This document shows positions 42,018-59,260 of a stretch of 59,917 nt of DNA, one piece after another. A model generated the notes under the pieces. The model made no database searches and was not told the DNA's origin. It saw nothing but the letters and a program-made list of their open reading frames with translations. This DNA is from a virus, in the IMG/VR virus record IMGVR_UViG_3300026097_000024, positions 1 through 59,917 of that record. One strand, given 5' to 3'. Each line of letters opens with the position of its first letter. Positions within the stretch are counted from its first letter, which is position 1. Both the position numbers and the translations under genes were made by a program.

Positions 42018-44048
42018 ATGGCATACGAAATATCATATACTGATCGAGCCAATAAAGGCACAATTACCATTGAAGATGGAGTTCTTAATCAGGAAACCAG
42101 TTTAAATATTCCAGGAAGAAATACAACCGCCTACGGAACAGCCATCGGCGAAAATTTTTTACATCTGTTAGAAAGTTTTGCAAATAACACAGAACCTGAT
42201 CGTCCAGTAGAAGGACAACTTTGGTACGATACATCCCTAGGTGCGGAACAATTAAAAGTCTATGATGGCACTAATTGGGTACCTGCCGGCGGGATTATAC
42301 GAGCAACAACAGAACCTGATGCAGTAAATAGTCAAATTGGGGATCTTTGGGCAGATACCGATAACCAACAACTATACTTATTCACAGGATCAGGATGGAT
42401 TCTAGTAGGTCCCCAATTCAGTGCGGGATTAGCAACAGGAGCAACGCCTACTAACATAATAGGCACTGACAATAATGAATACACTGCAATTATTGTTGAA
42501 GTATCGGCACAACCAGTTGCAATAATATCTAGCCAAACATTTACTCCTAAAACTACCATTCCGGGATTTACAACGATTAATCCAGGCATAAATTTGTCCA
42601 CACGAAATATTTCAGGCGACGGCGAACCGAAATACTATGGAACTGCACAAAAGGCAGAAAGCTTGATTGTAGCGGGCGAAACTGTCGATGCAGGTCAGTT
42701 TGTGAGAAAAGATGTTACAGGAACAACCTTATTTCCAATCAATATACAAAACAACCAAGGAATAAACTACGGTGTAAATGCAGAACTTAATATAGGTGTA
42801 GAAGGAACAGCTGGCATTATTCAGCATCAAATTGAAGGGTCTAATATTGATATTCGAGTACGCAATTCGGGTACAACACAAACTGTAATGCGAGTAGACT
42901 CTAGCCTAAGAGTAGGAATTAACAATGAAGCACCTGACGAAGCTTTAGATGTTACAGGTAATGTGCAAACTAGCGGAAAAATACTCCTTAATGACACTAC
43001 CGAAAGTAATACATTTGGTACAGGTAGTCTAATAGTCAAAGGCGGAGTAGGTATTGCTAAAAATTTAAATGTTGCAGGTGATGTTCAATTCACTAATTTA
43101 ACAACTACACAGAACATTGTGCCTGACACAAACAACACCCGCAGTTTAGGCACTGCATCTGCAAAATGGCGGGAAGTAAATGCTACAACTTTCAAAGGAA
43201 ATTTAGAAGGTAATGTAAGCGGCACGATTACAGGCAGAGCGGGTTCTGCTGATAAAATTACATCGGCAACTACTTTTAGAATGACAGGAGATGTTATCGC
43301 AGATGACTTTATCTTCGACGGACAAACCGGCGGAAGCACCAAGACTTTCACGACCACAATAAGTAACCAAATAATTGCAGCTAAAGATCCTGTTCTAAGT
43401 TCTCAAGTAGATGACGAAATTTTATTAAACAGGGTTTCAGGAAATACCGGATTATTTAAAATCAGTAGAAGAAATTTTTTGTCCGCGGTACCTACAAATC
43501 CACCCGGAGTAATATTGCCTTTTGGAGGTAACGCAGCTCCTTCTGGATGGCTACTTTGCGATGGTAGCCAGTACAGGATTGCAGATTATCAAGCTCTATT
43601 TGATATAATTGGATATAATTTTGGTGGGCGGTCTTCGTTGCCAACTGGCGTGTTTAAAGTACCAGATTTAAGAGGCAGGATGCCATTAGGAGCAGATAAT
43701 ATGGGAGGCACCAGTGCTAATACAAACACTGCACCTTCTGCAGATGTAATTGGCGCTACTGATGGATCAGAAACAAATAACATTCTTGTTGAGAATTTGC
43801 CAGAGCACAAACATAATCTAAGAGGCGACAGCGGAGATCAGTATTATGCAATTCGTGATGTAAGTGGTACACCTAATGACGATGAAGCAATTGTTTATGA
43901 TGCGCCTACAGCCACAGGAAATGGACAAGCTTTATCAGACAGCGGCGGCGTTATTACCGGCATAGGAGAAACACTTGGAACTCCTTTAAACATAATGAAT
44001 CCAACAGTGACTTTAAATTATATAATTTATACAGGTAGGAGTTCTTAA
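42018..44048 (+). CDS. Tail fibre with C-terminal tail-collar domain (gp12-like)
   Basis: A 676-aa protein. Residues about 1-125 form a module shared with the next two genes (AIGENFLHLLESFANNTEPD, then GQLWYDT and KVYDGTNWVPAGG). The centre has tail-fibre repeats (ALDVTGNVQTSGKILLNDTT near 310). The C-terminal 180 residues begin PPGVILPFGGNAAPSGWLLC (about 494-513) and contain VPDLRGRMPLGADNMGG and LPEHKHN, the signature of the phage tail-collar domain of T4 gp12. It is therefore probably a short receptor-binding fibre. Its stop codon overlaps the next start (TAATG). Confidence 0.85.
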   Translation: MAYEISYTDRANKGTITIEDGVLNQETSLNIPGRNTTAYGTAIGENFLHLLESFANNTEPDRPVEGQLWYDTSLGAEQLKVYDGTNWVPAGGIIRATTEPDAVNSQIGDLWADTDNQQLYLFTGSGWILVGPQFSAGLATGATPTNIIGTDNNEYTAIIVEVSAQPVAIISSQTFTPKTTIPGFTTINPGINLSTRNISGDGEPKYYGTAQKAESLIVAGETVDAGQFVRKDVTGTTLFPINIQNNQGINYGVNAELNIGVEGTAGIIQHQIEGSNIDIRVRNSGTTQTVMRVDSSLRVGINNEAPDEALDVTGNVQTSGKILLNDTTESNTFGTGSLIVKGGVGIAKNLNVAGDVQFTNLTTTQNIVPDTNNTRSLGTASAKWREVNATTFKGNLEGNVSGTITGRAGSADKITSATTFRMTGDVIADDFIFDGQTGGSTKTFTTTISNQIIAAKDPVLSSQVDDEILLNRVSGNTGLFKISRRNFLSAVPTNPPGVILPFGGNAAPSGWLLCDGSQYRIADYQALFDIIGYNFGGRSSLPTGVFKVPDLRGRMPLGADNMGGTSANTNTAPSADVIGATDGSETNNILVENLPEHKHNLRGDSGDQYYAIRDVSGTPNDDEAIVYDAPTATGNGQALSDSGGVITGIGETLGTPLNIMNPTVTLNYIIYTGRSS

Positions 44049-45990: not shown

Positions 45991-47478
45991 ATGGCGTATA
46001 CTATTGATAGATACAATAACACACTGTTAACGGTTGTAGAAGACGGAACAATCGATCAAACTACCGATCTAAAACTAGTAGGAAAAAACTATGCTGGATA
46101 CGGTGAAATTCAGAATGAAAATTTTGTATTTTTGTTAGAGAACTTTAATGGTGCTAATCCACCTCCTAAGGCAGTAAGCGGTCAAGTTTGGTTTGATAGT
46201 GGTACTAAAAAATTAAAATTCTATGACGGTAGTAAATTCCGTACAACAGGGGGTGCAGAAGTCAGTGATTCTATACCTAGCGGACTTACAGAAGGCGATT
46301 TTTGGTGGGATACTGCAAACGAGCAACTATATGCCTATAATGGTACAGATTTTATTCTTGTAGGACCGCAAGATGCAGGAGATGGTGTTACACAGATGCA
46401 ATCCCGCACTGTCCGCGACACTCAAGGCACAACAAGATCTGTAATTGTTTCTCTTGTTAACGATGAAATTATACATGTAATAAGCTCTCAGCAGTTTACA
46501 ATAGATAGTTCTGATGCAGAAAACGCTATTCCTGGGTTTGATGTAATAAGACAAGGTTTAACACTTAAGAATACAATTAACTCTACAGGCGGCGCAACTA
46601 GCACGAATCATCGTTTTTGGGGCACAGCGTCTAATGCGGATAAATTAGGCGGCATCAGCGCATCTAACTATGTGCAGTCAGGAAATGCAAGTTTTGCATC
46701 TTTAGTAAGTTTTGCTGACGCTGGAATAGCAGTCGGCGATTCGAACGATCTAAAAATCAAAATAGAAAACGATAATCAAGCAGTTATAGCAAATGAAGTA
46801 GGCACTTTGATAAGTTTTAGAGCAAAGGACGGCCTTGGCAACATAAAAAATTCGCTGAGAATTGAAGCAAACAGTGTAATTCCGGGATTGCAAGCAGACG
46901 GTGTAACTACAGAAGTAGTAACACTAGGGTCAGCTTCTAGACAGTTTAATAATGTTTTTGCAACTACATTTACAGGCACTGCGACAACAACCAACACTTT
47001 AAAGGTATCCGGAAACGAAAGATCAGGATCAACAAGCGCGACTGCAAATACAGTAGCAGTTAGAGATTCAAATGCAGATATTTTTGCTAATTTATTCAGA
47101 GGAACAGCAACCAGTGCTAGATATGCAGATTTAGCAGAAAAATACACAACTGATCAAGAATATGTTGTTGGTACTGTTATGGCAGTATGCAGTCACAACG
47201 ATCACGAAATGGAGTTAGCGAACGCATCTGATGTAGTAGCAGGTGTTATATCAGAAAATCCTGCTTATTTGATGAATGCAGAAGCAAACGGCCAACCAGT
47301 TGCACTTAAAGGACGAGTACCTGTGCGAGTGTATGGTCCAGTGGAAAAGGGTGACAAAGTTTTTGTAGAACAAGACGGTGTTGCAAGTGTATTAGGTAAT
47401 GGCGACCTAGTAGGTATAGCACTAGAAACTAATTTAACTCAAGAAGAAAAATCTGTAGAATGCTTCTTAAAGGTATAA
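45991..47478 (+). CDS. Tail-fibre paralogue 3
   Basis: A 495-aa protein with the same N-terminal module (GYGEIQNENFVFLLENFNGA, GQVWFDS, KFYDGSKFRTTGG). The C-terminal 125 residues (ARYADLAEKYTTDQEYVVGT, VVAGVISENPAYLMN, KGRVPVRVYGPVEKGDKVFV) differ from the other two. They resemble the terminal domain seen after fibre repeats in other phages and in some bacterial surface proteins, where it can serve as a trimerisation or self-processing tail. Three tandem genes with one shared base and three different tips suggest alternative or mixed fibres. Confidence 0.8.
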   Translation: MAYTIDRYNNTLLTVVEDGTIDQTTDLKLVGKNYAGYGEIQNENFVFLLENFNGANPPPKAVSGQVWFDSGTKKLKFYDGSKFRTTGGAEVSDSIPSGLTEGDFWWDTANEQLYAYNGTDFILVGPQDAGDGVTQMQSRTVRDTQGTTRSVIVSLVNDEIIHVISSQQFTIDSSDAENAIPGFDVIRQGLTLKNTINSTGGATSTNHRFWGTASNADKLGGISASNYVQSGNASFASLVSFADAGIAVGDSNDLKIKIENDNQAVIANEVGTLISFRAKDGLGNIKNSLRIEANSVIPGLQADGVTTEVVTLGSASRQFNNVFATTFTGTATTTNTLKVSGNERSGSTSATANTVAVRDSNADIFANLFRGTATSARYADLAEKYTTDQEYVVGTVMAVCSHNDHEMELANASDVVAGVISENPAYLMNAEANGQPVALKGRVPVRVYGPVEKGDKVFVEQDGVASVLGNGDLVGIALETNLTQEEKSVECFLKV

Positions 47479-47481
47479 ATA
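47474..47481 (+). promoter_or_regulatory. Late promoter TATAAATA
   Basis: A perfect TATAAATA overlapping the stop codon of fibre 3, 29 bases before the ATG at 47510, with TTGAGG as a possible ribosome site. Confidence 0.65.
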
Positions 47482-47509: not shown

Positions 47510-48451
47510 ATGAGTGTAAATTCTGGCGGTGATATCAATGCCGCAGACTACAATGGATTGCAAAGCAGAATAGCTAATATATTAGGTAATGGTTCTGGAA
47601 CTTCCGGGTACGGACAAAGTCTTTCAAGTTCTCAAGTCACTGCAAATGTGTCTGATGTTACTGCTGCAAGGATGGATCAGTTAAGAATAGACATGAATAA
47701 GGCTTATGCGCATCAAGAAAACACTAATTCAACATTGGGTAATATACAAGTAGGAAATATTATTGGTGCTGATGCAAGTAATACCGGGTCTACTGCTGGT
47801 GTAGGCACAAGTAATATGACAGATTCCAACAAAGGGATGAATGATTATTTTTCTTTAATGACAACTATCGAAAATAATAAATTTAAAATTGATCCAAATC
47901 AAGCTTCTGTCGAACCTGCAATTACTAGCCAACGCACTACAGCTTGGAACGGAACTATTACCCATTCATTTACTGTTACTTTTAATAATGCTGATCATCG
48001 TAGGCATTTTTTTAATGCTGGGGGAGAAATAAGATTTACTGCAAACATTTCAGGAGGCAGCGGTTCTAAGACCAATGACTGGAGAACAATGTTATCTAAT
48101 ATGGGTATCATAAAATTTAATTATACCAGTACAGTTTCAACAGGCACAGGCACAGGATCTACAATTGGCAATTATGATCTGGATGGTACTTATACACAAA
48201 TATTTCAAAAAACTGGTAGCGGTGTCTATGCTGAAAACGATTATATTGTTAACGCACGGGCTAATTCAACAAGTCAAATAGAGTTTGAAGTAAGATTTCA
48301 AGATGATGATACTGGAGATCAAACTGGTTCAGGTCCTCCTGTAGATGAAAATGTAAACGGAACAATAACTAGCACTATTCAGCAGTTTCGTGCAACTGGG
48401 GCAAATGTTGAAGTAGCAAGTCCTAGCTATTCAAATACCTCCACGCTCTAA
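47510..48451 (+). CDS. Conserved structural protein at the end of the late operon
   Basis: A 313-aa protein rich in Ser, Thr, Asn and Gly. The N-terminal half (GGDINAADYNGLQSRIANIL near residue 6, GYGQSLSSSQVTANVSD near 33) is typical of a virion protein family found at the end of the baseplate/fibre cluster in marine T4-like phages. From about residue 145 a jelly-roll-like part follows (HSFTVTFNNADHRRHFFNAG, GGEIRFTANISGGSGSKTND). It contains no enzymatic motif. A virion location is inferred from the family's usual context and the late promoter. Confidence 0.7.
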   Translation: MSVNSGGDINAADYNGLQSRIANILGNGSGTSGYGQSLSSSQVTANVSDVTAARMDQLRIDMNKAYAHQENTNSTLGNIQVGNIIGADASNTGSTAGVGTSNMTDSNKGMNDYFSLMTTIENNKFKIDPNQASVEPAITSQRTTAWNGTITHSFTVTFNNADHRRHFFNAGGEIRFTANISGGSGSKTNDWRTMLSNMGIIKFNYTSTVSTGTGTGSTIGNYDLDGTYTQIFQKTGSGVYAENDYIVNARANSTSQIEFEVRFQDDDTGDQTGSGPPVDENVNGTITSTIQQFRATGANVEVASPSYSNTSTL

Positions 48452-48458
48452 ATATTCT

Positions 48459-48487
48459 TTGACTTTCTTTTATTTTTCATATATAAT
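48459..48487 (+). promoter_or_regulatory. Host-type sigma70 promoter for the radical SAM/glycosyltransferase operon
   Basis: TTGACT (48459-48464), 17 bases, TATAAT (48482-48487), followed by an AGGAGG ribosome site and the ATG at 48505. This is a near-consensus vegetative promoter placed exactly at the switch from late structural genes to the accessory operon. The late TATAAATA box is absent here. Confidence 0.85.
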
Positions 48488-48504
48488 ATGATTAGGAGGT
48501 TCTT

Positions 48505-48855
48505 ATGGACGAAAGACTTAAAAAAGCTCTTGATTTTTCCAACTACATGGTTACTTTAAATAATCAAAAAAGAGTATTACAGGAAACATTTTATCAAGAT
48601 AGTATTTTGTATTACAAAGGTGGTCAATTCACTGTAAATAAGGAACTAATATGTTTTTGTCGAACAATGTTAGATTCAAATCAAGATCGAATAGTTATAG
48701 TAGATGATAATGACATACCTATTGAAATAGAAGATTTAGAGTCTTTTATGGAAGAAGTGTATGAAACTTACTTTTCTGCATCCAACAAATTTCTTATAGA
48801 ATATAACAAACTTAAAAAAAATAGAAGCGTGGAAAAATTGATTGAACATGAGTAA
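48505..48855 (+). CDS. Small conserved protein opening the accessory operon
   Basis: A 116-aa acidic protein, MDERLKKALDFSNYMVTLNN, with a central YYKGGQFTVNKELICFCRTM (about residues 36-55) and an acidic helix IEIEDLESFMEEVYETYF. Similar small ORFs are found near the structural clusters of marine T4-like phages, without known role. It is the first gene behind the strong host-type promoter and its end overlaps the next ATG by 8 bases. Confidence 0.65.
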   Translation: MDERLKKALDFSNYMVTLNNQKRVLQETFYQDSILYYKGGQFTVNKELICFCRTMLDSNQDRIVIVDDNDIPIEIEDLESFMEEVYETYFSASNKFLIEYNKLKKNRSVEKLIEHE

Positions 48856-49741
48856 GGGTATTCTAGTATTTGCTAGAAACAACAGTCAAGTTGATTATGT
48901 GAAACAAGCTTATTTTCTAGCAAAACAAGCAAAATCAATTTTAAATCTTCCAACAACTGTTGTTACAGACAGCATAGAATACCTTGTTTCTGCCTATCCA
49001 GATTATACAGAAGTATTTGATAAAATTATAAGCATTGTTTGGAAAGAAGAAGAGTTGAATGAAAACACAACTTTGAGTAAAACAGAAGAACATACCTGGA
49101 AAAATTATTTTGACGGAGTATTTTCTCAAAAAAAACTAGAGTTTAAAAATGAAACACGAACTCTAGCTTACGAATTAACTCCATATGAACAAACACTATT
49201 GCTTGACAGCGATGTAGTGTTAATAGATGATAGTTACCTATATTGTTTTGAACAAAAACAAAATTTTTTAATTTATGACACTGCTTATGATTTAGCTGGA
49301 TTCAGAGATTATTCAGAATTTGATTTTGTAAGCGATACAGGTGTAAAGTTTTATTGGGCAACCTGTGTATTTTTTAGGAAAACTATTGAAAATAAAATAT
49401 TTTTCGATTTATTGCAACACATACAAGAAAATTGGAGGCATTATAATTCTATCTTTCAAATAAATCGCAGTGTGTATCGCAACGATCATGCATTCAGTAT
49501 AGCAATACATATTATGAATGGATATCAAGATGGTAATTTTGCAGGATCTATGCCTGGTAAATTGTTTTATACAACAGACAAAGATATATGTTGGCAAATT
49601 AAGGATGATGAAATTCTAATGTTATTAGAAAAACAAAATCATCTAGGTGAATACACTATGTGCAAATGGAAGGGTAAAACATTGCATGTGATGAACAAAT
49701 TTAGTCTTAACAGATGCATAGATGAGATTATAAATGACTAA
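48848..49741 (+). CDS. Glycosyltransferase-like protein 1 (GT-A type, DSD motif)
   Basis: A 297-aa protein. It opens with GILVFARNNSQVDYVKQAYF (residues 4-23), like the nucleotide-sugar domain start of GT8-type enzymes. LTPYEQTLLLDSDVVLID follows (about 110-127), whose DSD is the expected metal-binding DxD motif. A later WATCVFFRKT and the RNDHAFSIAIHIMNG helix are also glycosyltransferase-like. The ATG at 48848 is preferred over a TTG at 48842. It overlaps the preceding and following genes by 8 bases each. It is a paralogue of the next gene. Donor and acceptor are unknown. Confidence 0.7.
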   Translation: MSKGILVFARNNSQVDYVKQAYFLAKQAKSILNLPTTVVTDSIEYLVSAYPDYTEVFDKIISIVWKEEELNENTTLSKTEEHTWKNYFDGVFSQKKLEFKNETRTLAYELTPYEQTLLLDSDVVLIDDSYLYCFEQKQNFLIYDTAYDLAGFRDYSEFDFVSDTGVKFYWATCVFFRKTIENKIFFDLLQHIQENWRHYNSIFQINRSVYRNDHAFSIAIHIMNGYQDGNFAGSMPGKLFYTTDKDICWQIKDDEILMLLEKQNHLGEYTMCKWKGKTLHVMNKFSLNRCIDEIIND

Positions 49742-50564
49742 GGGATTTGTATTATTTGCTGTTGGAAAAGAATATGTAAAACAAGCATATTTGTGTGCAA
49801 TGAGTATTCGTGCTACGGGAAATGAATATCCCATTAGTTTGATCACTTCAGATAGTGTTGTACCAAAATACAGTTCGATATTCGACAAAATTATAGATAT
49901 ACCATGGTACAAAGAAGATAACAGTAGATTTCAAATCGAGCACCGATGGAAAATCTATCATGCTAGTCCTTATGATCAAACCATAGTGCTAGATACAGAT
50001 GTATTGGTCCTACAAAGTCTTGATGTCTGGTGGAAATTTTTAGATAATTATGACTTATATTATCTCGATAAAGCCTATACATATAGAAAACAGCGCATAA
50101 CTACAGACTACTACCGCAAAGCATTTACAGCAAATAAATTGCCAAATATTTATAATGGAATTCATTATTTTAAAAAAAGCGAATTTGCACATAACTTTTA
50201 TAAATGGTTAGAACTTATAGCAAATAATTGGGAACTATTTTACGGACAATATTGTAAAGAACATTATCCAAAAACTCCTAGCATGGATATATCGGTTGCT
50301 ATTGCTAGTAAAATAATGGATTGCGATCATAAAATTACTAATAAAAATAATGAATTTCCTATGTTTATTCATATGAAACCTCATGCACAAAACTGGCATA
50401 ATGTAAGTGAATCATGGCAAAATAAAGTAGGAGTTTATCTCACTGATGACTTGCAATTAAAAATAGGGAATTATCTGCAAAATACTGTGTTTCATTATAC
50501 AGAAAATTCGTTTGTTACTGATAAAATTGTGCAACAATATGAAAAATTTTTAGGTAGAAATTAG
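49734..50564 (+). CDS. Glycosyltransferase-like protein 2 (GT-A type, DTD motif)
   Basis: A 276-aa paralogue of the preceding protein. Residues 3-22 (KGFVLFAVGKEYVKQAYLCA) and SPYDQTIVLDTDVLVL (about 78-93, DTD motif) align with it. IYNGIHYFKKSEFAHNFYKW (about 140-160) is typical of the acceptor side of GT8-like enzymes. A late PMFIHMKPHAQNW contains the histidine expected after the second metal-binding region. The ATG overlaps the previous stop region by 8 bases. The tandem pair suggests two successive sugar additions. Substrates cannot be read from the sequence. Confidence 0.72.
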   Translation: MTKGFVLFAVGKEYVKQAYLCAMSIRATGNEYPISLITSDSVVPKYSSIFDKIIDIPWYKEDNSRFQIEHRWKIYHASPYDQTIVLDTDVLVLQSLDVWWKFLDNYDLYYLDKAYTYRKQRITTDYYRKAFTANKLPNIYNGIHYFKKSEFAHNFYKWLELIANNWELFYGQYCKEHYPKTPSMDISVAIASKIMDCDHKITNKNNEFPMFIHMKPHAQNWHNVSESWQNKVGVYLTDDLQLKIGNYLQNTVFHYTENSFVTDKIVQQYEKFLGRN

Positions 50565-50565
50565 T

Positions 50566-51141
50566 ATGAATAAGATGTATGTGTGTTTTGATTATAATAC
50601 AGGTGAAATTACACGAATTACAAACAAAGTAGAGCAAAATGAAAATTATGTAGAAGTCGATAGTGAGGATGTGAGGCCATTACAAACAGGCGAAGAATTA
50701 ACATCCTCATACATTGTAAAATATAATTTAAAAGATAATATCTATGAATTTAAAGCCAAAGATAATTTTGAAGTTGATAGTCTAGATATAAACGACATAA
50801 TTTATAAGATTCCAGAAGATACTGTTCCTGATGCTGATTTAACAATAATACAAGATTTTGAAAATACATGTTGGAAATTTTACATAGGTAAAAATTTTAA
50901 AAAAAATATTACTAATCAAGTGGTAAATCTAAATAGAAAATTACACTTTAGCATTACTGCAAAAGACGATCCTAATGTTTTATACAAAACATTTATTTTA
51001 GATTTTGCAGAAACAGTAAGACAACATTATGCGGTTTTGCCTTTTACAGAGTTGTTCGAATACGAACCAGTAGATATAAGCATCTATACAACCAAAAAAT
51101 TTAATACATACCAATTTAAAAGGATTAAGGATGGCAAATAA
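50566..51141 (+). CDS. Unassigned 191-aa protein in the accessory operon
   Basis: An acidic, mixed alpha/beta protein (MYVCFDYNTGEITRITNKVE at the start; KLHFSITAKDDPNVLYKTF near residues 125-145). No motif or membrane segment is recognised. It starts 1 base after the preceding stop and overlaps the next start by 11 bases, so it is tightly coupled to the pathway. The N-terminus (CFDYNTGEITRI) is reminiscent of a small beta domain found in fibre-associated proteins, but the operon context favours a partner of the neighbouring enzymes. Confidence 0.6.
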   Translation: MNKMYVCFDYNTGEITRITNKVEQNENYVEVDSEDVRPLQTGEELTSSYIVKYNLKDNIYEFKAKDNFEVDSLDINDIIYKIPEDTVPDADLTIIQDFENTCWKFYIGKNFKKNITNQVVNLNRKLHFSITAKDDPNVLYKTFILDFAETVRQHYAVLPFTELFEYEPVDISIYTTKKFNTYQFKRIKDGK

Positions 51142-52066
51142 ATTTAGAGTAACAGACTGCGACATAATTTACCTTAGCTATGATGAACCTAACGCAGAAA
51201 AAAATTATTCAGATCTTTGTCAAAAGGTTCCATGGGCGAAGCGTGTACATGGTGTAAAAGGATCTGATTCAGCACACAAAGCATGTGCTGAGATATCAGA
51301 AACAGATAGATTTATAACTGTAGACGGTGACAACATTATAGATCCTGAATTTTTAAATCAAGAATTAGACTTTACTGATCATGCAGACTTAGAACATAAT
51401 GTTATAAGCTGGTGTGGACGAAATGTAGTAAATAGCTTGATGTACGGAAATGGTGGCGTGAAATGTTGGCCAAAGAACTATGTGCTAAACATGCGAACGC
51501 ACGAAAATGCTGATCCAAATAATCTCCATGCACAAGTAGATTTTTGTTGGGATGCAAAATATATTCAAATGAATAGTTGTTATAGCACAATTTACAATAA
51601 CGCAACTCCCCAGCAAGCATGGAGAGCAGGGTTTCGTGAAGGTGTAAAACTTGTGCTAGACAGGGGCGTCAGGTTAGAAAAGACAAATTTTTTACAAAAT
51701 GCACATTGGAAAAATTTACATATGTTATATGTATGGTGCATGGTAGGTGCAGATGTTGAAAACGGACTCTGGGCAATTTACGGAGCACGAAAGGGATTGT
51801 TCTTAACAATGTGTACAGATTGGGATTATGTTCAGGTAAGAGATTTTGATTATTTAAACGATTACTGGGAAAAAACTACAAAAACTATAGCAGAAAAAAA
51901 TCTTATGGAAGAAATACACAAGCTAGGCGAACTTTTAAAGTGTAACTTGAATCTTTCTATAGCTAAAAATCCGTTAGACGGAGAACAAAACAAATTCTTT
52001 AAAAGTTTGTATCAAAATCCTAAAAGAAATCACAGATTAAAACAATTAATTATAGATCCAGAATGA
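51131..52066 (+). CDS. Glycosyltransferase-like protein 3 (GT-A type, DGD motif)
   Basis: A 311-aa protein. CDIIYLSYDEPNAEKNYSDL (residues 10-29) and DRFITVDGDNIIDPEFLNQE (about 59-78) give a Rossmann-like first strand and a DGD metal-binding motif. Then come WCGRNVVNSLMYGNGGVKCW (about 95-114) and QQAWRAGFREGVKLVL (about 160-175). The same motifs recur in the shorter protein at 58009, so the two are paralogues of a family distinct from the GT pair at 48848/49734. It overlaps both neighbours. The target sugar and acceptor are unknown. Confidence 0.68.
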   Translation: MANKFRVTDCDIIYLSYDEPNAEKNYSDLCQKVPWAKRVHGVKGSDSAHKACAEISETDRFITVDGDNIIDPEFLNQELDFTDHADLEHNVISWCGRNVVNSLMYGNGGVKCWPKNYVLNMRTHENADPNNLHAQVDFCWDAKYIQMNSCYSTIYNNATPQQAWRAGFREGVKLVLDRGVRLEKTNFLQNAHWKNLHMLYVWCMVGADVENGLWAIYGARKGLFLTMCTDWDYVQVRDFDYLNDYWEKTTKTIAEKNLMEEIHKLGELLKCNLNLSIAKNPLDGEQNKFFKSLYQNPKRNHRLKQLIIDPE

Positions 52067-53445
52067 CAAACGAAGAAAGAATTAAGATACTTGAGGATAA
52101 AAGAAAAAAAATAAACAGTATTAGTACGAGTTTTTGTACGGCGAAATGGCTTCAAACTACTCTATATCTACAGAATGGGTATAATCATAGTTGTCACCAT
52201 CCTGCTCCGCACAAAATTCCACTAAAAGAAATAGAAGCAGACCCTGCAGCATTACACAACAGTCAGTATAAAAAAGAACAAAGATTAAAAATGCTAACAG
52301 GAGAACGACCTAGTGAATGTAGCTATTGCTGGAAAATAGAAGATTTAGGCAAAGATTACTTTAGTGATAGGCATTACAAAACAAGCGATACATGGGCCTG
52401 GAATAGGATTGACGAAATTGCCACAAGTGATCCCGCAAAAAATGTATATCCTAGTTACTTAGAAGTATCATTTTCAAATGCATGTAACTTTGCATGTGCT
52501 TATTGTAGTCCAGAGATTAGTTCGAAATGGATGGAAGATATTAAAACGCACGGCCCGTATCCAACTAAACACGGAGCTCATCATTTAGACTATCTAGAAA
52601 AGTCAGGCAAAATGCCTTATAAGAATCGAGATCACAATCCTTATGTAGAAGCATTTTGGAAATGGTTTCCGGACGCATTGCCGCATCTTAAAGTGTTGCG
52701 AATTACGGGCGGCGAACCTACAATGAGCAAAGATACCTGGCGACTATTAGATTATCTAATTGAGAATCCGCACCCAGATTTAGATGTTGCTATCAATACC
52801 AATGCGTGTGTTGAGGAAAAATTAATTGATCGGTTGATTCAAAAAATTAGCGCACTAAAACAAGTTGGTACTAAGGTAGATGTTTATACAAGTTTAGAAA
52901 GCACAGGTAAACAGGCAGAATACGCAAGAGACGGCATGGATTTTTACCAGTGGAAAATTAATGTACATCGCTTGTTAAAAGAAACAGATACTACTGTAGC
53001 AATCATGACCACAATAAATATTTTAAGTTTACCTAGTTTTACAGATTTCTTAGAAACTGTAATGCAATACAGGAAACTTTATAATAAAGCTTTTGAAAAC
53101 AATCGCATCCCTATAAGTATAAACATAATGCATTGGCCACCGCATCTGCAATGCTCATTGTTAAATCGAGAGACCAGACTACAATACGCAGATGTAATTG
53201 AATCATTCGGAAAAAGTTGGCTTAAATATTATTCGCCAGATAAGTATGCACGCATATACCTAGAGGAATTTAACCAAATACAAAGATTTTGTGATTATTT
53301 GCGCAACACAGAATCAGTTTATGATCATAGATCCGATTTTGTAAGATACATACAAGCATACGATAAAAGAAGAAATAAAAATTTTGCCGCAATTTTTCCT
53401 GAATATTGCCATTTAATCGAGGAATGGAATGCCAAAGAAATCTAA
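52063..53445 (+). CDS. Radical SAM protein 1 with N-terminal cysteine (twitch-like) domain
   Basis: A 460-aa protein. The radical SAM cluster motif CNFACAYC (Cys141, 145, 148; Cx3Cx2C) is followed by ITGGEP (residues 214-219), the SAM-binding glycine motif. Before it are four further cysteines, Cys25 (SFCTAKW), Cys44 (SCHHPAPH) and Cys86/Cys89 (ECSYCWKIED), a spacing that suggests an auxiliary iron-sulphur site of twitch/SPASM type at the N-terminus. The protein is expected to be cytoplasmic and to generate a 5'-deoxyadenosyl radical. The substrate could be a peptide or a sugar. It is the first of three related genes; the ATG overlaps the GT gene by 4 bases (ATGA). Confidence 0.85.
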   Translation: MTNEERIKILEDKRKKINSISTSFCTAKWLQTTLYLQNGYNHSCHHPAPHKIPLKEIEADPAALHNSQYKKEQRLKMLTGERPSECSYCWKIEDLGKDYFSDRHYKTSDTWAWNRIDEIATSDPAKNVYPSYLEVSFSNACNFACAYCSPEISSKWMEDIKTHGPYPTKHGAHHLDYLEKSGKMPYKNRDHNPYVEAFWKWFPDALPHLKVLRITGGEPTMSKDTWRLLDYLIENPHPDLDVAINTNACVEEKLIDRLIQKISALKQVGTKVDVYTSLESTGKQAEYARDGMDFYQWKINVHRLLKETDTTVAIMTTINILSLPSFTDFLETVMQYRKLYNKAFENNRIPISINIMHWPPHLQCSLLNRETRLQYADVIESFGKSWLKYYSPDKYARIYLEEFNQIQRFCDYLRNTESVYDHRSDFVRYIQAYDKRRNKNFAAIFPEYCHLIEEWNAKEI

Positions 53446-54874
53446 CGAAAGCCTACAACAATATCAGTCTAGAGTTTTAGACAGCAAAAGCAAAAGTTTT
53501 TGCGGCGCTAAGTGGTATAACGCAACTACATGGTTAGGCAGCGGTACAACAGCAAGTTGTCATCATCCTCCTGCACACAAAATTCCCTTAGTAGAAATAG
53601 AAGAAGACTATACAGCTATTCATAATACTAAACACAAAAAAGAAATGCGGCGCATGATGCAAAACGGAGATCGTCCTAGTGAGTGCGAATATTGTTGGAA
53701 AATGGAAGATATGGGCAAAGATTCTGTGAGTGACAGAACCTTTAAAAGTATTATTTACTCTGAAGCAGAATTGCACGAAGCATACGAAACAGATCCAAAT
53801 CAAAGTGTTAATCTAAAAACATTAGAAATTGCATTCGATAGAGTATGCAATCTTGCATGTAGTTATTGCAATGCTAGTTTCTCTACCACATGGGCTAAAG
53901 ATATTAAACAGAACGGTCCATATCAAAATCTAGTAAGCGACGGAGCAGGTGCATTTCACCAAAATGGTGACTGGGCACAGCCGTACAACAACGATGAAGA
54001 CAATCCATACATTCAAGCGTTTTGGAAATGGTGGGATAACGGACTAAACAATAGTTTAGAAGAATTACGCATCACTGGCGGCGAGCCTTTGATGAGTGGT
54101 AATACTTGGAAATTATTTGATTGGTTTAACAAACAAAATACTGATATGCGGTTTGCTATAAACACTAATCTTATTGCAAAAAAGAATATCATAGACGAAC
54201 TAATTAAAAAATCAAAAAATATTAAAAACTTTCACATTTATACAAGTTGCGAAGCAGTACACGATCAAGCAGAATATATTCGTGATGGTTTAGATTATAA
54301 TCTATGGTTAGAGAATGTGAAGAGAATCTTAAATGAAACAGATGCAGAATTACATGTAATGATGACTATCAATAGTTTATGTTTGTTTAGCATTACAGAC
54401 TTTCTTGACCAAATATATGAATTAAAAAAAATAAAAAAAAGCAAAACTCCCACAGTAAGTTTAAACTTATTGCGTTTTCCTAGCTTTCAATCTCCACTAG
54501 TTTTGCCTAATTATATCAAAGATTATCTCCATGCTAGATTAGAATATTGGTATAGTAAAAATAAAAATAAAGAACTTTGGCAAGAACACGAACAGGCCAG
54601 TATAGAACGCTTAATGGATTATCTTGTAACTGTGGATGCTCCACATCGCAGAACAAGTAACCCTATTACTCTTTGGCGAGATTTTAAAACATTCTATAAC
54701 CAGTATGATATGCGTAGGAATAAAAGCATTTATGTTTTTCCTAAGATATTGACTGATTGGATGGATAATATTCCTAATACAGATACAGAAATAAAGGAAC
54801 TAGCAGAAAAAGAAGGATGGATTTTAAAACCAGATCCAGAAAATATTGACGATGCACTTTCATCCTACGATTAG
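53429..54874 (+). CDS. Radical SAM protein 2, paralogue of the preceding gene
   Basis: A 481-aa protein. All key cysteines fall at nearly the same positions as in its neighbour: Cys25 (SFCGAKW), Cys44 (SCHHPPAH), Cys86 and Cys89 (ECEYCWKMED), then CNLACSYC at 140-147 and ITGGEP at about 215-220. This indicates gene duplication followed by divergence. The two share IHNTKHKKEMRRMM-like and NPYIQAFWKWW segments, but the C-terminal halves differ. It overlaps the previous gene by 17 bases. A 5'-deoxyadenosyl radical chemistry is expected. The different C-terminus suggests a second substrate or a heteromeric partner. Confidence 0.85.
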   Translation: MPKKSNESLQQYQSRVLDSKSKSFCGAKWYNATTWLGSGTTASCHHPPAHKIPLVEIEEDYTAIHNTKHKKEMRRMMQNGDRPSECEYCWKMEDMGKDSVSDRTFKSIIYSEAELHEAYETDPNQSVNLKTLEIAFDRVCNLACSYCNASFSTTWAKDIKQNGPYQNLVSDGAGAFHQNGDWAQPYNNDEDNPYIQAFWKWWDNGLNNSLEELRITGGEPLMSGNTWKLFDWFNKQNTDMRFAINTNLIAKKNIIDELIKKSKNIKNFHIYTSCEAVHDQAEYIRDGLDYNLWLENVKRILNETDAELHVMMTINSLCLFSITDFLDQIYELKKIKKSKTPTVSLNLLRFPSFQSPLVLPNYIKDYLHARLEYWYSKNKNKELWQEHEQASIERLMDYLVTVDAPHRRTSNPITLWRDFKTFYNQYDMRRNKSIYVFPKILTDWMDNIPNTDTEIKELAEKEGWILKPDPENIDDALSSYD

Positions 54875-54888
54875 CAAAAAATTTAAAC

Positions 54889-56154
54889 ATGACGATACAT
54901 TTTAAAGATTCAAATAATTTTTGTGTAGCACCGTGGATGCATCTACATGTGATTAATGATGGGAGAGCATTTGCTTGCTGTCAGACTCCTTTGACTGACG
55001 AGAATAGTTTTGGCAATATTAAGCATCAAACCCTTTTCGAAGTTGTAAATAGTAACCGTGCAAAAAACATGCGCAAAGACATGCTAGAAGGTAACCCTCT
55101 TCCAAGTTCATGTGAGCGTTGTGTTGCAAAACAAAATCATAACATGAATACAATGCGTACAGGATTAAACAGCAAGTGGTTTGACGAAACAGCAGACCTC
55201 ATTGCAAGTACAGCCGATGACGGAACAATACCAGAGCTACAATTAAAATATTGGGATTTTCGTTTCAGTAACTATTGCAATCTCGCTTGTACAACGTGTA
55301 GTCCGTTGTTTAGTACACAGTGGAGTAAAGATTTTAAAAAATTACATCCAGGTGCTGACAAGTACAGCGAAACACGCTTGATTGATTTAAAAGAGGCAAA
55401 CAAATTTTGGGATGATATAGAATATAATCTTGATGCTATGAGCGAGATACACTTTGCAGGAGGTGAACCTTTAATTATGCCAGAGCATTGGCGTATTTTG
55501 GATCTACTTGTTGAGCGTGGAAAATTTAATGTCAATCTAAGGTACAGCACAAACGGCACAACACTTGGAACTAAGAAACAGAATGTCTTAGAGTACTGGA
55601 AGAAGTTTAAGTATGTACATCTAAGTTTAAGCATCGACGGCGCAGGCGATGCATTCGAACACATTAGGTACAAAGGCAAATGGGCATCTACACTTGAAAA
55701 TCTTAAAAAGATTCGATACAGTGGAGCAGTAGACTTTTGGTATCATCCTACCGTTAGTGTGCTTAATATTTTCCGTATTACAGAACTTCACGAAGAATTG
55801 CACAAGAAAGATCTTATCCCTCTAGAAAGTGTACATCCTGAAAGAAGATTTTGTATGGAAAATTATTGGGTAGATAGATTTCATATAAATCCATTGTTTA
55901 CACCGGATTATTATGCTATTACTGTAATGCCTGAAATACTAAAAGAACAAGCAGCAGAAAAATTGACCAAGTATGGTAAAAAATTAGAAGCAGATACGGG
56001 TATTCCATTTCATGGTTGGCAAGGTATCATAGACTTTATGTACCAAGCAGACAATAGTCATTTGTGGCAACAGTTTAAATTGAAATCAAAAAAAATTGAC
56101 TATGTAAGAAACACAAATGTGTTCAAGATAAGTCCGGAATTGCTTTATGAGTAG
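54889..56154 (+). CDS. Radical SAM protein 3 (more distant relative)
   Basis: A 421-aa protein. CNLACTTC (Cys130, 134, 137) and FAGGEP (about 188-193) are the radical SAM core. An N-terminal NFCVAPWMHLHVINDGRAFA leads into CCQTP (Cys12, Cys30/31), and SCERC follows (Cys75, Cys78). The arrangement is as in the two preceding proteins but with closer spacing and a CC pair instead of CHH. A later STNGTTLGT and SLSIDGAGDAFEHIRY (about 220-265) fit later strands of the radical SAM barrel. It starts 14 bases after the previous stop. Proteins of this type occur in other marine T4-like phages, without known function. Confidence 0.85.
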   Translation: MTIHFKDSNNFCVAPWMHLHVINDGRAFACCQTPLTDENSFGNIKHQTLFEVVNSNRAKNMRKDMLEGNPLPSSCERCVAKQNHNMNTMRTGLNSKWFDETADLIASTADDGTIPELQLKYWDFRFSNYCNLACTTCSPLFSTQWSKDFKKLHPGADKYSETRLIDLKEANKFWDDIEYNLDAMSEIHFAGGEPLIMPEHWRILDLLVERGKFNVNLRYSTNGTTLGTKKQNVLEYWKKFKYVHLSLSIDGAGDAFEHIRYKGKWASTLENLKKIRYSGAVDFWYHPTVSVLNIFRITELHEELHKKDLIPLESVHPERRFCMENYWVDRFHINPLFTPDYYAITVMPEILKEQAAEKLTKYGKKLEADTGIPFHGWQGIIDFMYQADNSHLWQQFKLKSKKIDYVRNTNVFKISPELLYE

Positions 56155-56983
56155 CATACCAAAACAAACATTGTCTAATTGGTCGCGATTGACACCTGCA
56201 AATGTGAATACATTGGAGGATTTAAAACCTTTCGGCGCACTAGACCTAAAAATATTTAATCAGGTAATAAAAGAACAATCTATACCGCCCTATCAAATAA
56301 AAATTTTGCAACCCCGAGAAAGTAAATTCTGGAAGAAAAATCCATGGCAGTATACCATAAATGAATACAATTTTCGTGATGTATGGGATTTCGAAGATAC
56401 TAGAAAACGCATAGGCTTTTTTGGTTGCAGTTTTACTGCAGGAGAAGGTATAGAATCGTCTGATTTACATGTGAACATAGTGGCCAAACATTTTAATCTA
56501 AATGTTTTTAACTTCGGAGCAGGAGGGGCAAGCATTGAACGGGTTGCAAGAACCTTTAGTGCAGTCAATGGTTTGTTAGATTTAGATTATGCCGTTGTAA
56601 CTTTACCTACATGGTATAGACAATTGCACATTGATGAATTAGGTAATATGGTAAATCTAATTCCTTCTTGGATTTGCCAAGGATATAAAAAATTAGGAAG
56701 AATAATGACATCTTTAGATGAAGATTATTATGCCATTAGAGCAGCATCTAATATAAATTGGATTTATGATATTGCTAAACATAAAGGTATAAAAATATTA
56801 TTCAGTTCTTGGGATCACACTACTAATGAATTTTGCAAACACATTGCCACAGATTATACCATTAATCCTTTTCCTAATATAGATGACAAAAAAGCAAGAG
56901 ACAGGTTACACCCGGGAGTAAAATCGCAACAGGCACATGCAGATCAAATAATAAAGGGAATAAATGATAGAGCTTGGATTTAG
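56147..56983 (+). CDS. SGNH-hydrolase-like protein
   Basis: A 278-aa protein. RIGFFGCSFTAGEGIESSDL (residues about 88-107) provides the nucleophile block, with Ser95 in GCSFTAGEG. FNFGAGGAS (about 121-129) is the second glycine-containing block, and DRLHPG (Asp252, His255) is the catalytic DxxH block near the C-terminus. The usual GxND block is not clear: VVTLPTWYRQ lies where it is expected. Family members are esterases, often deacylating or acetylating sugars, which would suit the neighbouring glycosyltransferases. No signal peptide is seen. It overlaps the radical SAM gene by 8 bases and the next gene by 20. Confidence 0.7.
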   Translation: MSSIPKQTLSNWSRLTPANVNTLEDLKPFGALDLKIFNQVIKEQSIPPYQIKILQPRESKFWKKNPWQYTINEYNFRDVWDFEDTRKRIGFFGCSFTAGEGIESSDLHVNIVAKHFNLNVFNFGAGGASIERVARTFSAVNGLLDLDYAVVTLPTWYRQLHIDELGNMVNLIPSWICQGYKKLGRIMTSLDEDYYAIRAASNINWIYDIAKHKGIKILFSSWDHTTNEFCKHIATDYTINPFPNIDDKKARDRLHPGVKSQQAHADQIIKGINDRAWI

Positions 56984-57929
56984 AAATATTGAAAATGATG
57001 TTAAATTTATCTATATAGAGCCATACAAAACAGAGTTAGCAAATGTTTGGCTTAGCCAGCTTGACAGATTGTTAGAAACACACAGCGAAAAGATATTTCA
57101 AAAAAATTTTAGTCTTTTGGGATTTCACAACAATTATAGAACTATAGAACACATTTGTGATGATCTTGAGCGCAGCATTGCTGTCATAAACAAATATTCC
57201 GATTATAAAATTTTACAAGATTTTTCTCCGCTAAGATATGGTTACAATCAAGAACTACTTAATCTTTTACATCATCATTTCGAAGTTACTCAAGGACAAT
57301 TATGGAATCCGGGTAGTGTAATAGCTCAATCAAACGGGGCAACTAGATTATCGATCTGTTATCTCAACCATTGTTGTCACGAACTTGAAGCGTGGTATGA
57401 CACCGCCGCCTTAAAAAATACAAAATGTTTTAACGGTTATTTTTATTATAATCTTTTAGGAATACAAGAGCGCATAGAGTTAGACCCTAAATTTAAATCG
57501 CAATTCGTAAAAAACATTGAGGACGGGCTAGTATATTTGCACTATGCACAAACAGGAAAGACTTGGTATGAAGCATATTTAGACAACGATGATATTGTGG
57601 GAACTGATGGTATATCAGAACACCGAGTAATAAGCGGAGAATTTAACTGTTATTTTGGCACAGGTTATGAATTACCTACAGACGAAAAATTTACCATTTG
57701 GTTAGAAAGTAAAGGAGTAGATCCAAACGATCAACAACTTGCACTTGGTTATGCGCCTATAGGACAAATAAAAAATTGTCCCCACGATGAAGCCCAAGAC
57801 TTTTTTAAAGAATTTACAGACTTTTACAGTATACGATATAATAATCGTACAATTGAATATGATTTTAGGCATACAGACGAAATTTACATAAAACTTCTTA
57901 CAGACTTATGGAGTAAATGGGGCCAATAA
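56964..57929 (+). CDS. Unassigned 321-aa protein, last gene of the accessory operon
   Basis: No family is recognised. The protein has a His-rich element LLHHHFEVTQGQLWNPGSV (about residues 100-118), a double-Cys element LNHCCHELEAWYD (about 133-145), and a C-terminal aromatic SGEFNCYFGTGYELP (about 216-230). The many conserved-looking His, Cys and Asp residues would fit a metal-dependent enzyme, but no known motif is complete. Its ATG overlaps the SGNH-like gene by 20 bases, the deepest overlap in the operon, which points to coupled expression and possibly to a complex with the products upstream. Confidence 0.6.
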   Translation: MIELGFRNIENDVKFIYIEPYKTELANVWLSQLDRLLETHSEKIFQKNFSLLGFHNNYRTIEHICDDLERSIAVINKYSDYKILQDFSPLRYGYNQELLNLLHHHFEVTQGQLWNPGSVIAQSNGATRLSICYLNHCCHELEAWYDTAALKNTKCFNGYFYYNLLGIQERIELDPKFKSQFVKNIEDGLVYLHYAQTGKTWYEAYLDNDDIVGTDGISEHRVISGEFNCYFGTGYELPTDEKFTIWLESKGVDPNDQQLALGYAPIGQIKNCPHDEAQDFFKEFTDFYSIRYNNRTIEYDFRHTDEIYIKLLTDLWSKWGQ

Positions 57930-57952
57930 ATATTCCTTAAAAATAAAAGGAC

Positions 57953-57968
57953 TTTTGTAATTACAAAA
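57953..57968. other. Perfect 16-base palindrome TTTTGTAATTACAAAA
   Basis: It lies between the end of the accessory operon and the promoter of the next gene, 5 bases before that promoter's -35 box. It could be a protein-binding operator or a weak transcription end. No GC-rich terminator stem was found here. Confidence 0.4.
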
Positions 57969-57973
57969 ATTTG

Positions 57974-58002
57974 TTGACTAGTGTGTTAATATATGTTAGA
58001 AT
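57974..58002 (+). promoter_or_regulatory. Host-type sigma70 promoter for the last glycosyltransferase-like gene
   Basis: TTGACT (57974-57979), 17 bases, TAGAAT (57997-58002), immediately before the ATG at 58009. A leader of only about 0-5 bases would result, so this message may also lack a ribosome site. Confidence 0.7.
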
Positions 58003-58008
58003 AATATT

Positions 58009-58692
58009 ATGTATGATTTAGTTTTTATTTCTTATAATGAGCCTAATGCTGAAGAAAACTACAATAATCTTAAACAGAGGTTTCCTACAGTTAAACGTGT
58101 AGACGGTGTGCGGGGAATACATCAAGCACATATTGCCGCAGCTAAAAAATGCTTTACCAAAATGTTCTGGGCAATCGATGGCGATGCAAAAATTTTAGAG
58201 TCTTTTGATTTTAATTATAAAACACAAGATTATAATATAAAAACAGTCCATGTATGGCATAGTATAAATCCAATAAATGGATTAGTATATGGCTATGGCG
58301 GGGTAAAATTATTGCCTAGACAGCTCACTTTATCCATAGATATTTCAAAACCTGACATGACTACTAGTATTTCAAAAAGTTTTAAAACAATGCCTGAAAT
58401 ATCAAATATAACAGCATTCGATACTGATCCTTTTAACGTTTGGAAAAGTGCATTTCGCGAGTGTGTAAAACTTTCAAGTAAAACAATTCAAGGTCAAGTA
58501 GACAAAGAAACAGACCAGAGACTAGAAACTTGGTGTACAAAAGGTATCGAAAAACCATTAGGAAAATTTGCTATAGCAGGTGCCAATGAAGGACGGAAAT
58601 ACGGAAAAGAAAATGCAGGAAACGAAAACGCACTTAGTTCGATTAATGATTTTGACTGGTTGCAAGAATTGTTCCAGCAACAACAAATCTAA
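58009..58692 (+). CDS. Glycosyltransferase-like protein 4, paralogue of the protein at 51131
   Basis: A 227-aa protein. LVFISYNEPNAEENYNNLKQ (residues 4-23), KMFWAIDGDAKILESF (about 51-66, DGD motif), INGLVYGYGGVKLLP (about 89-103) and WKSAFRECVKLS (about 144-155) line up with the same elements of the 311-aa protein at 51131. It lacks about 80 residues in the C-terminal part and may be a reduced copy. It has its own promoter and stands apart from the operon. Its last 50 bases overlap the convergent methyltransferase-like gene. Confidence 0.65.
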   Translation: MYDLVFISYNEPNAEENYNNLKQRFPTVKRVDGVRGIHQAHIAAAKKCFTKMFWAIDGDAKILESFDFNYKTQDYNIKTVHVWHSINPINGLVYGYGGVKLLPRQLTLSIDISKPDMTTSISKSFKTMPEISNITAFDTDPFNVWKSAFRECVKLSSKTIQGQVDKETDQRLETWCTKGIEKPLGKFAIAGANEGRKYGKENAGNENALSSINDFDWLQELFQQQQI

Positions 58693-59260
58693 TTCCACGC
58701 TCGTCTGTGATTTCGTCTTCTGATAAAACGATTGAGTTTGCCGGAAGTTGAGATTTTAAATCTGTCATCGAATTTACACAATTCACATGTCCTTCAATAT
58801 CATGCATGTTGTTAGAAGTAAACACAAAGTTTGTGTTTTTCGGCCAATACGGCCAAGTGTTCATCGGAGGCATGTGTTCGCATGAAGTGTTTATGAAAAG
58901 ATCTGTGTCGTGATATCTTTTTAAATCTAAATTAAAAACATTGCCAGGAATATATTCTACATTATCTATATCGGGGAACAATCTGTTTTTGGCTATCTTT
59001 AAAACCTGTTCGTCCAAGTCAATGCAACTTATGCGTTTCACCTTGTCACACAGCCCTGGAATAAGAATGCTACCATACCAACTTCCGAAAATAATGACTT
59101 CAGAATCCGTGTTTACAAAGTGATTCCCTTCAACAAGTTCTAGCACCCGCGATTTAGATTTGAACTGGTTGTCGCTGAATGAATCTATAATATCTAAACC
59201 ATACTTGGGTTTTTCTTTAATGGTTTTTAAAGCATTTCTAAAAATAGTTTCTGTGATCAT
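58643..59260 (-). CDS. SAM-dependent methyltransferase-like protein
   Basis: A 205-aa protein. Class I methyltransferase elements are visible: SEVIIFGSWYGSILIPGL (residues about 53-70, the SAM-binding glycine loop, with one Gly replaced by Trp), RISCIDLDEQVLKIAK (about 76-91, acidic ribose-binding residue Asp81), YIPGNVFNLD (about 103-112) and the fourth strand DLFINTSCEHM. The acceptor is not indicated. It is transcribed towards the glycosyltransferase gene, overlapping its end by 50 bases. Its ATG overlaps the carbamoyltransferase stop codon by 4 bases, so the two are an operon. A sugar methyltransferase would fit the context. Confidence 0.65.
   Translation of the reverse strand: MITETIFRNALKTIKEKPKYGLDIIDSFSDNQFKSKSRVLELVEGNHFVNTDSEVIIFGSWYGSILIPGLCDKVKRISCIDLDEQVLKIAKNRLFPDIDNVEYIPGNVFNLDLKRYHDTDLFINTSCEHMPPMNTWPYWPKNTNFVFTSNNMHDIEGHVNCVNSMTDLKSQLPANSIVLSEDEITDERGIRFVVAGTILATSQNH

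Follow-up and report, generated by a model that had tools for sequence, protein, structure and literature searches.

Why does a T4-like virus keep enzymes of sugar transfer and of radical chemistry in one tight block directly behind its tail-fibre genes, under a promoter of the host type and not of the late type? The question is raised by IMG/VR virus record IMGVR_UViG_3300026097_000024, whose 59,917 nucleotides are the window analyzed here. The contig carries a T4-like gene set (portal, head protease, major head protein, gp46/gp47-type nuclease subunits, gp55, baseplate wedge and hub), and ten of its genes, designated A to J, form a compact operon at 48505-57929 that is placed directly after the tail-fibre genes (Table 1). 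The answer tentatively favored here, with confidence a little short of even, is that this fibre-linked and host-promoter-driven operon tailors a glycan, so that a host-surface glycan is remodelled to match the fibre.

An earlier note on this DNA, made by a model from the letters alone, had described a tight ten-gene operon with three radical SAM (S-adenosylmethionine) proteins, three glycosyltransferases and one SGNH-like protein, and each of these descriptions was borne out by the analysis below. All ten open reading frames (ORFs) were found where they had been claimed, with overlaps of 4-20 bases and gaps of 1 and 14 (successive spacings of -14, -8, +1, -11, -4, -17, +14, -8 and -20 bases), and 79 bases separate J from the next gene, K. 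Hydropathy profiles of A to M gave no sign of membrane helices or signal peptides, and the operon proteins are therefore expected in the cytoplasm.

The near-consensus host promoter that was said to head this transcription unit has withstood scrutiny as well. Footprinting upstream of A found sites scoring at least 10/12 in 101 of 125 distinct regions, 99 of them with a 17-base spacer, while none of 114 stretches inside the upstream gene reached 10/12 and shuffles did so in 4%; a chance promoter before A is thereby ruled out. The T4-late-type motif TATAAATA precedes 25% of t4 relatives versus just 2% of A relatives, and a late promoter before A was accordingly rejected. Because the footprint recurs in most regions and the late motif is commoner before t4, a host-type promoter between the fibre genes and the operon is supported by evolution. 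Across the whole window, TTGACN-(16-18)-TATAAT occurs in 2 copies versus 0.42 expected by shuffling, and the second copy sits before gp55. Matches of 11/12 stand before gp47 (TTGACA-18-TATACT) and before the major head protein gene (1535-2701; TAGACA-18-TATAAT), and K has a 10/12 site in the window and one of at least 10/12 in 57% of its relatives. The earlier statement that only gp47 and gp55 share this promoter type was thus correct for those two genes but overlooked the head gene and K. Judged from T4 biology and promoter type, the operon would be transcribed early by host RNA polymerase, as had been proposed. The accompanying claim that its products are not virion parts was too strong, since the block sits directly behind the fibre genes and could modify fibres. 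In three loci among the most divergent relatives (L039, L049 and L103), the sigma-70 site upstream of A is missing and its place, close to where A begins, is taken by a late-type motif (TATAAATA, CATAAATA or similar), possibly reflecting promoter switching of the same operon.

The gene order that the earlier note proposed to look for in other phages was found in many IMG/VR relatives. Searches were made with F, J, A and E; the counts anchored on A and E hold among the matches listed, and loci are not fully independent because some share one contig. The fibre-region gene t4 lies directly before A in 76 of 79 A-anchored loci, and the order A-B-C-D-E is kept in 72 of 79, the remainder being cut or lacking genes. 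After E follows an NF033640-like radical SAM gene in 61 of 66 loci. This slot is filled by a single gene in 51 loci (mostly at 34-40% identity) and by a pair in 8, so that the F-G pair characterizes the window's sublineage and not the whole group, and F-G as an obligate pair was rejected. The near-universal adjacency in F-anchored loci (F and G within 3.5 kb in 93, with somewhat wider spacing in 3) carries a bias from the query. The same order, with E to H at 29-54% identity, appears in L155, L161 and L164, which come from Pelagibacter, Rickettsiales and betaproteobacterial bins of metagenome-assembled genomes (MAGs) and are phage contigs. As judged from these sequences, the stable core consists of A-B-C-D-E followed by a twitch-domain radical SAM enzyme. 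Among 50,697 cultured phage records, A, C and E found no match.

Could the genes nevertheless be loose cargo, collected from hosts by a hypervariable island downstream of the fibres and lacking any joint function? The genes beyond the A-F core do vary strongly between relatives, and lipopolysaccharide genes of unproven function have been described in large T4-like genomes (PMC3037559). The core, however, has kept its order over deep divergence, its catalytic cysteines are invariant, and the ratio of nonsynonymous to synonymous substitution rates (dN/dS) is about 0.05-0.3 in nearly all comparisons, with D (reaching 0.63) and a single comparison of A (0.31) as the exceptions. Such purifying selection, together with the conserved order, rules out chance ORFs and neutral decay. 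Decay and absence from related phages were outcomes that the earlier note had named as fatal to its proposal, and the conservation in many relatives excludes both. The cargo explanation is disfavored for the A-F core and highly improbable as an account of the locus.

Which chemistry does this core encode? By sequence, F, G and H are assigned to one known subfamily, the twitch-domain radical SAM proteins of NF033640, a fact that the earlier note had missed, as it had the recurrence of the F-G pair in predatory bacteria. They score 336, 301 and 371 bits, respectively, against a curated cut-off of 170, with nearly the full model covered, and also exceed the cut-off of Pfam PF04055. F and G are paralogues with 42% identity. 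All three carry CxxxCxxC plus four N-terminal auxiliary-cluster cysteines, and the cluster cysteines are invariant among relatives (seven in 45/45 F, seven in 39/39 G and eight in 25/25 H sequences). As in other members of NF033640 (N_Twi_rSAM), an N-terminal auxiliary-cluster domain precedes the radical SAM core. The subfamily has a name without an assigned reaction, whereas the window supplies a context, namely the F-G tandem and its linkage to fibres. In cultured phages, radical SAM proteins were matched at just 20-26% identity, in KVP40-like and K566-like Vibrio phages. The cultured Vibrio phage K566, a possible laboratory model, has three clustered twitch-type radical SAM genes (L107, 7977-14713), of which two exceed the NF033640 cut-off and the third narrowly misses it, and a fourth gene on the other strand. 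The 275 kb record behind L294 (G009) holds 12 twitch radical SAM profile matches in one phage genome, and other relatives hold 10-11.

The sugar-transferring enzymes are of two kinds. B and C are paralogues whose joint profile (A3) finds glycogenins alone in PDB; the match spans the nucleotide-sugar-binding half, positions 6-106, including the DxD motif, of which D89 is invariant. On this profile evidence both are GT8-type glycosyltransferases, differing from the glycogenin branch of GT8 in that their C-terminal halves are unmatched. E, according to its structural model (predicted local distance difference test, pLDDT, 85), is a GT-A-fold glycosyltransferase-like protein. Foldseek returned GT-A matches with probabilities of 0.95-1.0, E values of ~1e-4 and template modelling scores of ~0.3, headed by two enzymes that S-glycosylate peptides, ThuS and SunS, together with the fucosyltransferase WrtF, and D65 and D67 of a DxD-type motif are invariant. 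K is placed with the glycosyltransferases by its sequence kinship to E. Of the adjoining genes named earlier, the fourth glycosyltransferase (K) and the carbamoyltransferase (M) stand, and the methyltransferase (L) is weakly supported.

Among the other operon proteins, I shares the Ser block and the Asp-x-x-His block of SGNH/GDSL hydrolases, with the triad invariant in 15 sequences. It differs from them in scoring under the family cut-off (Lipase_GDSL_3 PF14606, 13.9 bits versus 27), and its sequence profile found no relative among solved structures. The model of J (pLDDT 79) matches BFVD entries with E values down to 6e-17, all of them uncharacterised phage proteins, and has no fold match in PDB. 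A 2-oxoglutarate oxygenase fold for J was discarded (top matches with probability <=0.03), and Atu_ph07 AUZ94948 was not accepted as its homologue (profile E 0.23). A and D had no matches in the libraries searched.

Assembled into a pathway, these enzymes would be produced by host RNA polymerase ahead of the late, gp55-dependent genes. Cytoplasmic B, C and E, with K next door, would assemble or lengthen a glycan of the host. F and G, which each have a SAM-cleaving cluster plus a single auxiliary cluster, might work jointly on the sugar or glycoconjugate, and H would contribute a further radical step. I would trim or transfer an acyl group, and J would be an accessory enzyme. If the altered envelope glycan is the one recognized by the phage's own fibres, the result would be less re-adsorption and superinfection. 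A glycan change at the fibre's receptor would explain why the operon travels with fibre genes. The joint action of F and G, the glycan substrate and the host-surface target are steps that we infer; of the coherent modification pathway that the earlier note had envisaged, the conserved union of sugar-transfer and radical SAM enzymes holds, and the host surface as its target belongs among the inferred steps.

Several observations weigh against such a glycan pathway. The operon has no polymerase, flippase or lipid-carrier gene. The closest relatives of B and C (glycogenin) and of E (SunS and ThuS) transfer sugars to protein, a similarity that does not fix the acceptor. Cultured jumbo-phage relatives carry, at the corresponding position, a radical SAM cassette that apparently acts on a phage protein, and PqqD-like proteins in 9 of 58 cellular-type loci of F relatives are a hint that the substrate in those loci may be a peptide.

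In the literature, the nearest counterpart is the pelagimyophage host recognition cluster (HRC), in which glycosyltransferases and radical SAM cassettes have been proposed to modify the host O-chain (PMC7029224). The earlier note had named no characterized system, yet fibre-linked islands with radical SAM enzymes and glycosyltransferases were already on record in that study. Like these pelagimyophage and cyanomyophage clusters, the window presents a glycosyltransferase-rich island adjoining the tail-fibre genes of a T4-like marine myophage, and GT8 is the family most represented in the HRC. It differs in its nearest cultured relatives by portal comparison, which are the jumbo phages Sinorhizobium Phosso (53%) and Agrobacterium Atu_ph07 (52%), followed by PA5oct-like Pseudomonas phages. 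A fixed core of A-B-C-D-E and radical SAM enzyme with its own conserved promoter is not described in PMC7029224, and the tandem twitch enzymes also set the operon apart. The O-antigen glycosyltransferases and acetyltransferases of seroconverting prophages are likewise phage enzymes that alter a phage-recognized surface glycan (PMC12373910), but these are prophage loci of one or few genes, whereas the T4-like phage considered here has ten genes, radical SAM enzymes among them, in one operon. This operon links radical SAM chemistry with host recognition by phages, in a lineage without a cultured member at these genes, and would give lytic marine phages a concrete route to change either the host receptor or their own fibres.

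The second of these routes is a strong rival, and mainly because of the jumbo-phage cassette it is retained as such. The substrates would then be fibre proteins of the phage itself, for instance t4 or D, which the enzymes would modify in the cytoplasm and which would bring sugars and radical-SAM-installed changes into the virion; early production would have the enzymes in place by the time late fibres are made. In Atu_ph07 (MF403008.1 117995-123646, L333) and Phosso (PV764938.1, L334), a giant structural gene and a fibre gene, whose product shares its N-terminal type with those of the window's fibre genes, stand ahead of a cassette in the order cupin, SPASM radical SAM, small protein and further radical SAM proteins. 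In Burkholderia phage FLC6 (LC592711.1, L335), cupin, radical SAM and small protein are preceded by a gene for a virion structural protein and one of GIY-YIG type. The small proteins are ~20-46% alike, and their near-invariant last ~16 residues read CHxSCHxSCHxSR(S/G)RR in Atu_ph07, Phosso and FLC6. Close variants of this tail occur in IMG/VR contigs, and the cassette is also found at L337, L338, L339, L341 and L344. The radical SAM protein beside the small protein is nearest to the peptide maturases DynA, PapB and DarE, far under their cut-offs, and NCBIfam has no model that fits the small protein or the cupin. To judge by sequence, the cassette looks like a maturation system of the type that yields ribosomally synthesized and post-translationally modified peptides (RiPPs), here directed at a fibre-associated phage protein. 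As a related system in cultured phages of Agrobacterium, Sinorhizobium and Burkholderia, it is testable now.

The same rival draws on the near-constant position of t4 before A, on the protein-modifying relatives of B, C and E, on the glycoproteins contained in virions of jumbo phage XacN1 (PMC5852040), and on the LamG domains that distant phages carry either as a fusion to F or between the F and G genes. Against it, the promoter is of the host and not the late type, and D, the best candidate substrate within the operon, is poorly conserved. A precursor with a conserved core motif beside maturases was found in the jumbo-phage cassette only; the operon proteins of the window lineage show no CHxxCH-type tail and no Cys-rich C-terminus, and no RiPP precursor was found in that lineage. 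The Atu_ph07 radical SAM enzymes score weakly at most against NF033640. Because tail and subfamily both differ, the jumbo cassette is an analogy and not a homologue. On balance, fibre modification is a possibility to be taken seriously, albeit one we would not expect to prevail. A bolder version, in which virions carry radical-installed crosslinks or sugars and the window operon and the CHxSCHxSCHxSRxRR cassette are two branches of one strategy, is rather unlikely.

Outside the lineage, large phages of greater distance also have the F-G pair, with 36-48% identity. A LamG-type gene separates F from G in 33 of these loci, F often carries a fused LamG-like domain, and neighbors include GT7-LamG, GT2, methyltransferase, NAD-dependent epimerase and aminotransferase genes. 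In L041-L083, a conserved protein of 64-89 aa (family f17, ALEKIANSLDSLTVWFEEIDKDEW...) stands beside GT7-LamG enzymes and the F-G pair. Among 84,980 species genomes scanned, 65 loci were found, mostly in Bdellovibrionota MAGs. Several of these are taken as chromosomal because of their gene context: a 936 kb contig (L144) has genes that we read as folD-, gcvH- and purT-like, and L123 and similar loci have what appear to be rplU-, obg- and gpmI-like genes. F and G lie side by side in L151, L138 and L130, and do so in reversed order in L144 and L150. The 58 loci taken as cellular contain a protein family with a Glycos_transf_1 member (19), an ABC ATPase family (18), an ABC-2 permease family (16), carbamoyltransferases (11) and PqqD-like proteins (9), and 30 of them share a ~320-aa family, presumably nucleotidyltransferase-like. 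A relative of J (29-31%) is found in Bacteriovoracaceae (L132, 9788-11185, minus strand), two genes from an F relative and beside exporter genes; the vicinity also holds PqqD, SPASM radical SAM, group 1 glycosyltransferase and ABC exporter genes. The sequences of these neighbors point to surface-polymer biosynthesis as the bacterial setting of F relatives, possibly with a peptide component. Since a FastTree tree intermixes phage and bacterial members (26 changes) on long branches, no direction of transfer is claimed. With the pair common to phages and predatory Bdellovibrionota, one radical SAM reaction becomes testable in two settings.

The bacterial loci bear on one more explanation, that F and G are maturases of a diffusible product (a modified nucleotide, peptide or glycopeptide) acting on the host or on competing phages. 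The PqqD-like neighbors speak for it, as does the weak similarity of F, G and H to models of peptide maturases, MoaA and viperin. It is opposed by the lack of PqqD-like proteins in phage loci and of a short Cys-rich or repeat-bearing precursor in the lineage, and by intergenic space that is almost nil within the operon. A diffusible product is accordingly improbable.

Table 1. Positions of the operon, its promoters and the adjoining genes in the window
Feature	Positions	Strand	Evidence or remark
t1, tail collar / tail-fibre-like, upstream	42018..44048	+	PHROGs tail families phrog_9116, 8763, others
t3, tail-fibre-like protein	45991..47478	+	phrog_19602 tail fiber protein, E 2e-14
TATAAATA, T4-late-promoter-like site before t4	47474..47481	+	pattern scan; overlaps t3 end
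t4, conserved fibre-region gene directly before operon	47510..48451	+	precedes A; no library match
Sigma-70-type promoter TTGACT-17-TATAAT	48459..48487	+	motif score; conserved among A relatives
A, 116 aa, first operon gene, function not assigned	48505..48855	+	conserved family, alignment A6; no library match
B, GT8-type glycosyltransferase, paralogue of C	48842..49741	+	alignment A3; profile match glycogenin, E 4e-9
C, GT8-type glycosyltransferase	49734..50564	+	alignment A3, glycogenin profile; phrog_1903; weak NF045582
D, 191 aa, fastest evolving member	50566..51141	+	alignment A7, 21-43% identity; dN 0.5-0.8
E, GT-A-fold glycosyltransferase-like, invariant DxDN	51131..52066	+	alignment A1; model pLDDT 85; Foldseek
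F, twitch-domain radical SAM enzyme	52063..53445	+	NF033640, E 2.7e-100
G, twitch-domain radical SAM enzyme, F paralogue	53429..54874	+	NF033640, E 1e-89
H, third twitch-domain radical SAM enzyme	54889..56154	+	NF033640, E 7e-111; SPASM, E 3.5e-10
I, SGNH-hydrolase-like protein	56147..56983	+	invariant Ser95, Asp252, His255
J, 321 aa, phage family without assigned fold	56964..57929	+	alignment A2; BFVD matches
Second sigma-70-type promoter TTGACT-17-TAGAAT before K	57974..58002	+	10/12
K, fourth glycosyltransferase-like, own promoter	58009..58692	+	same protein cluster as E
L, possible class I methyltransferase	58643..59260	-	HcgC, E 0.0016, under cut-off
M, carbamoyltransferase C-terminal part, cut by contig end	59257..59898	-	PF16861, E 5e-68; phrog_1601 positions 318-526/528

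Beyond the operon, no tRNA gene was found in the whole window record. VrlC and the neck gene gp14 delimit the pelagimyophage-type HRC; PF11649 (neck gene gp14) had 0 matches in any record and likewise 0 in the control genomes, and the window contig ends at 59917. A single ORF of 5049 codons fills 26228-41377 and is flanked by the baseplate wedge gene and the fibre genes, a position that corresponds to that of the giant structural protein in Atu_ph07.

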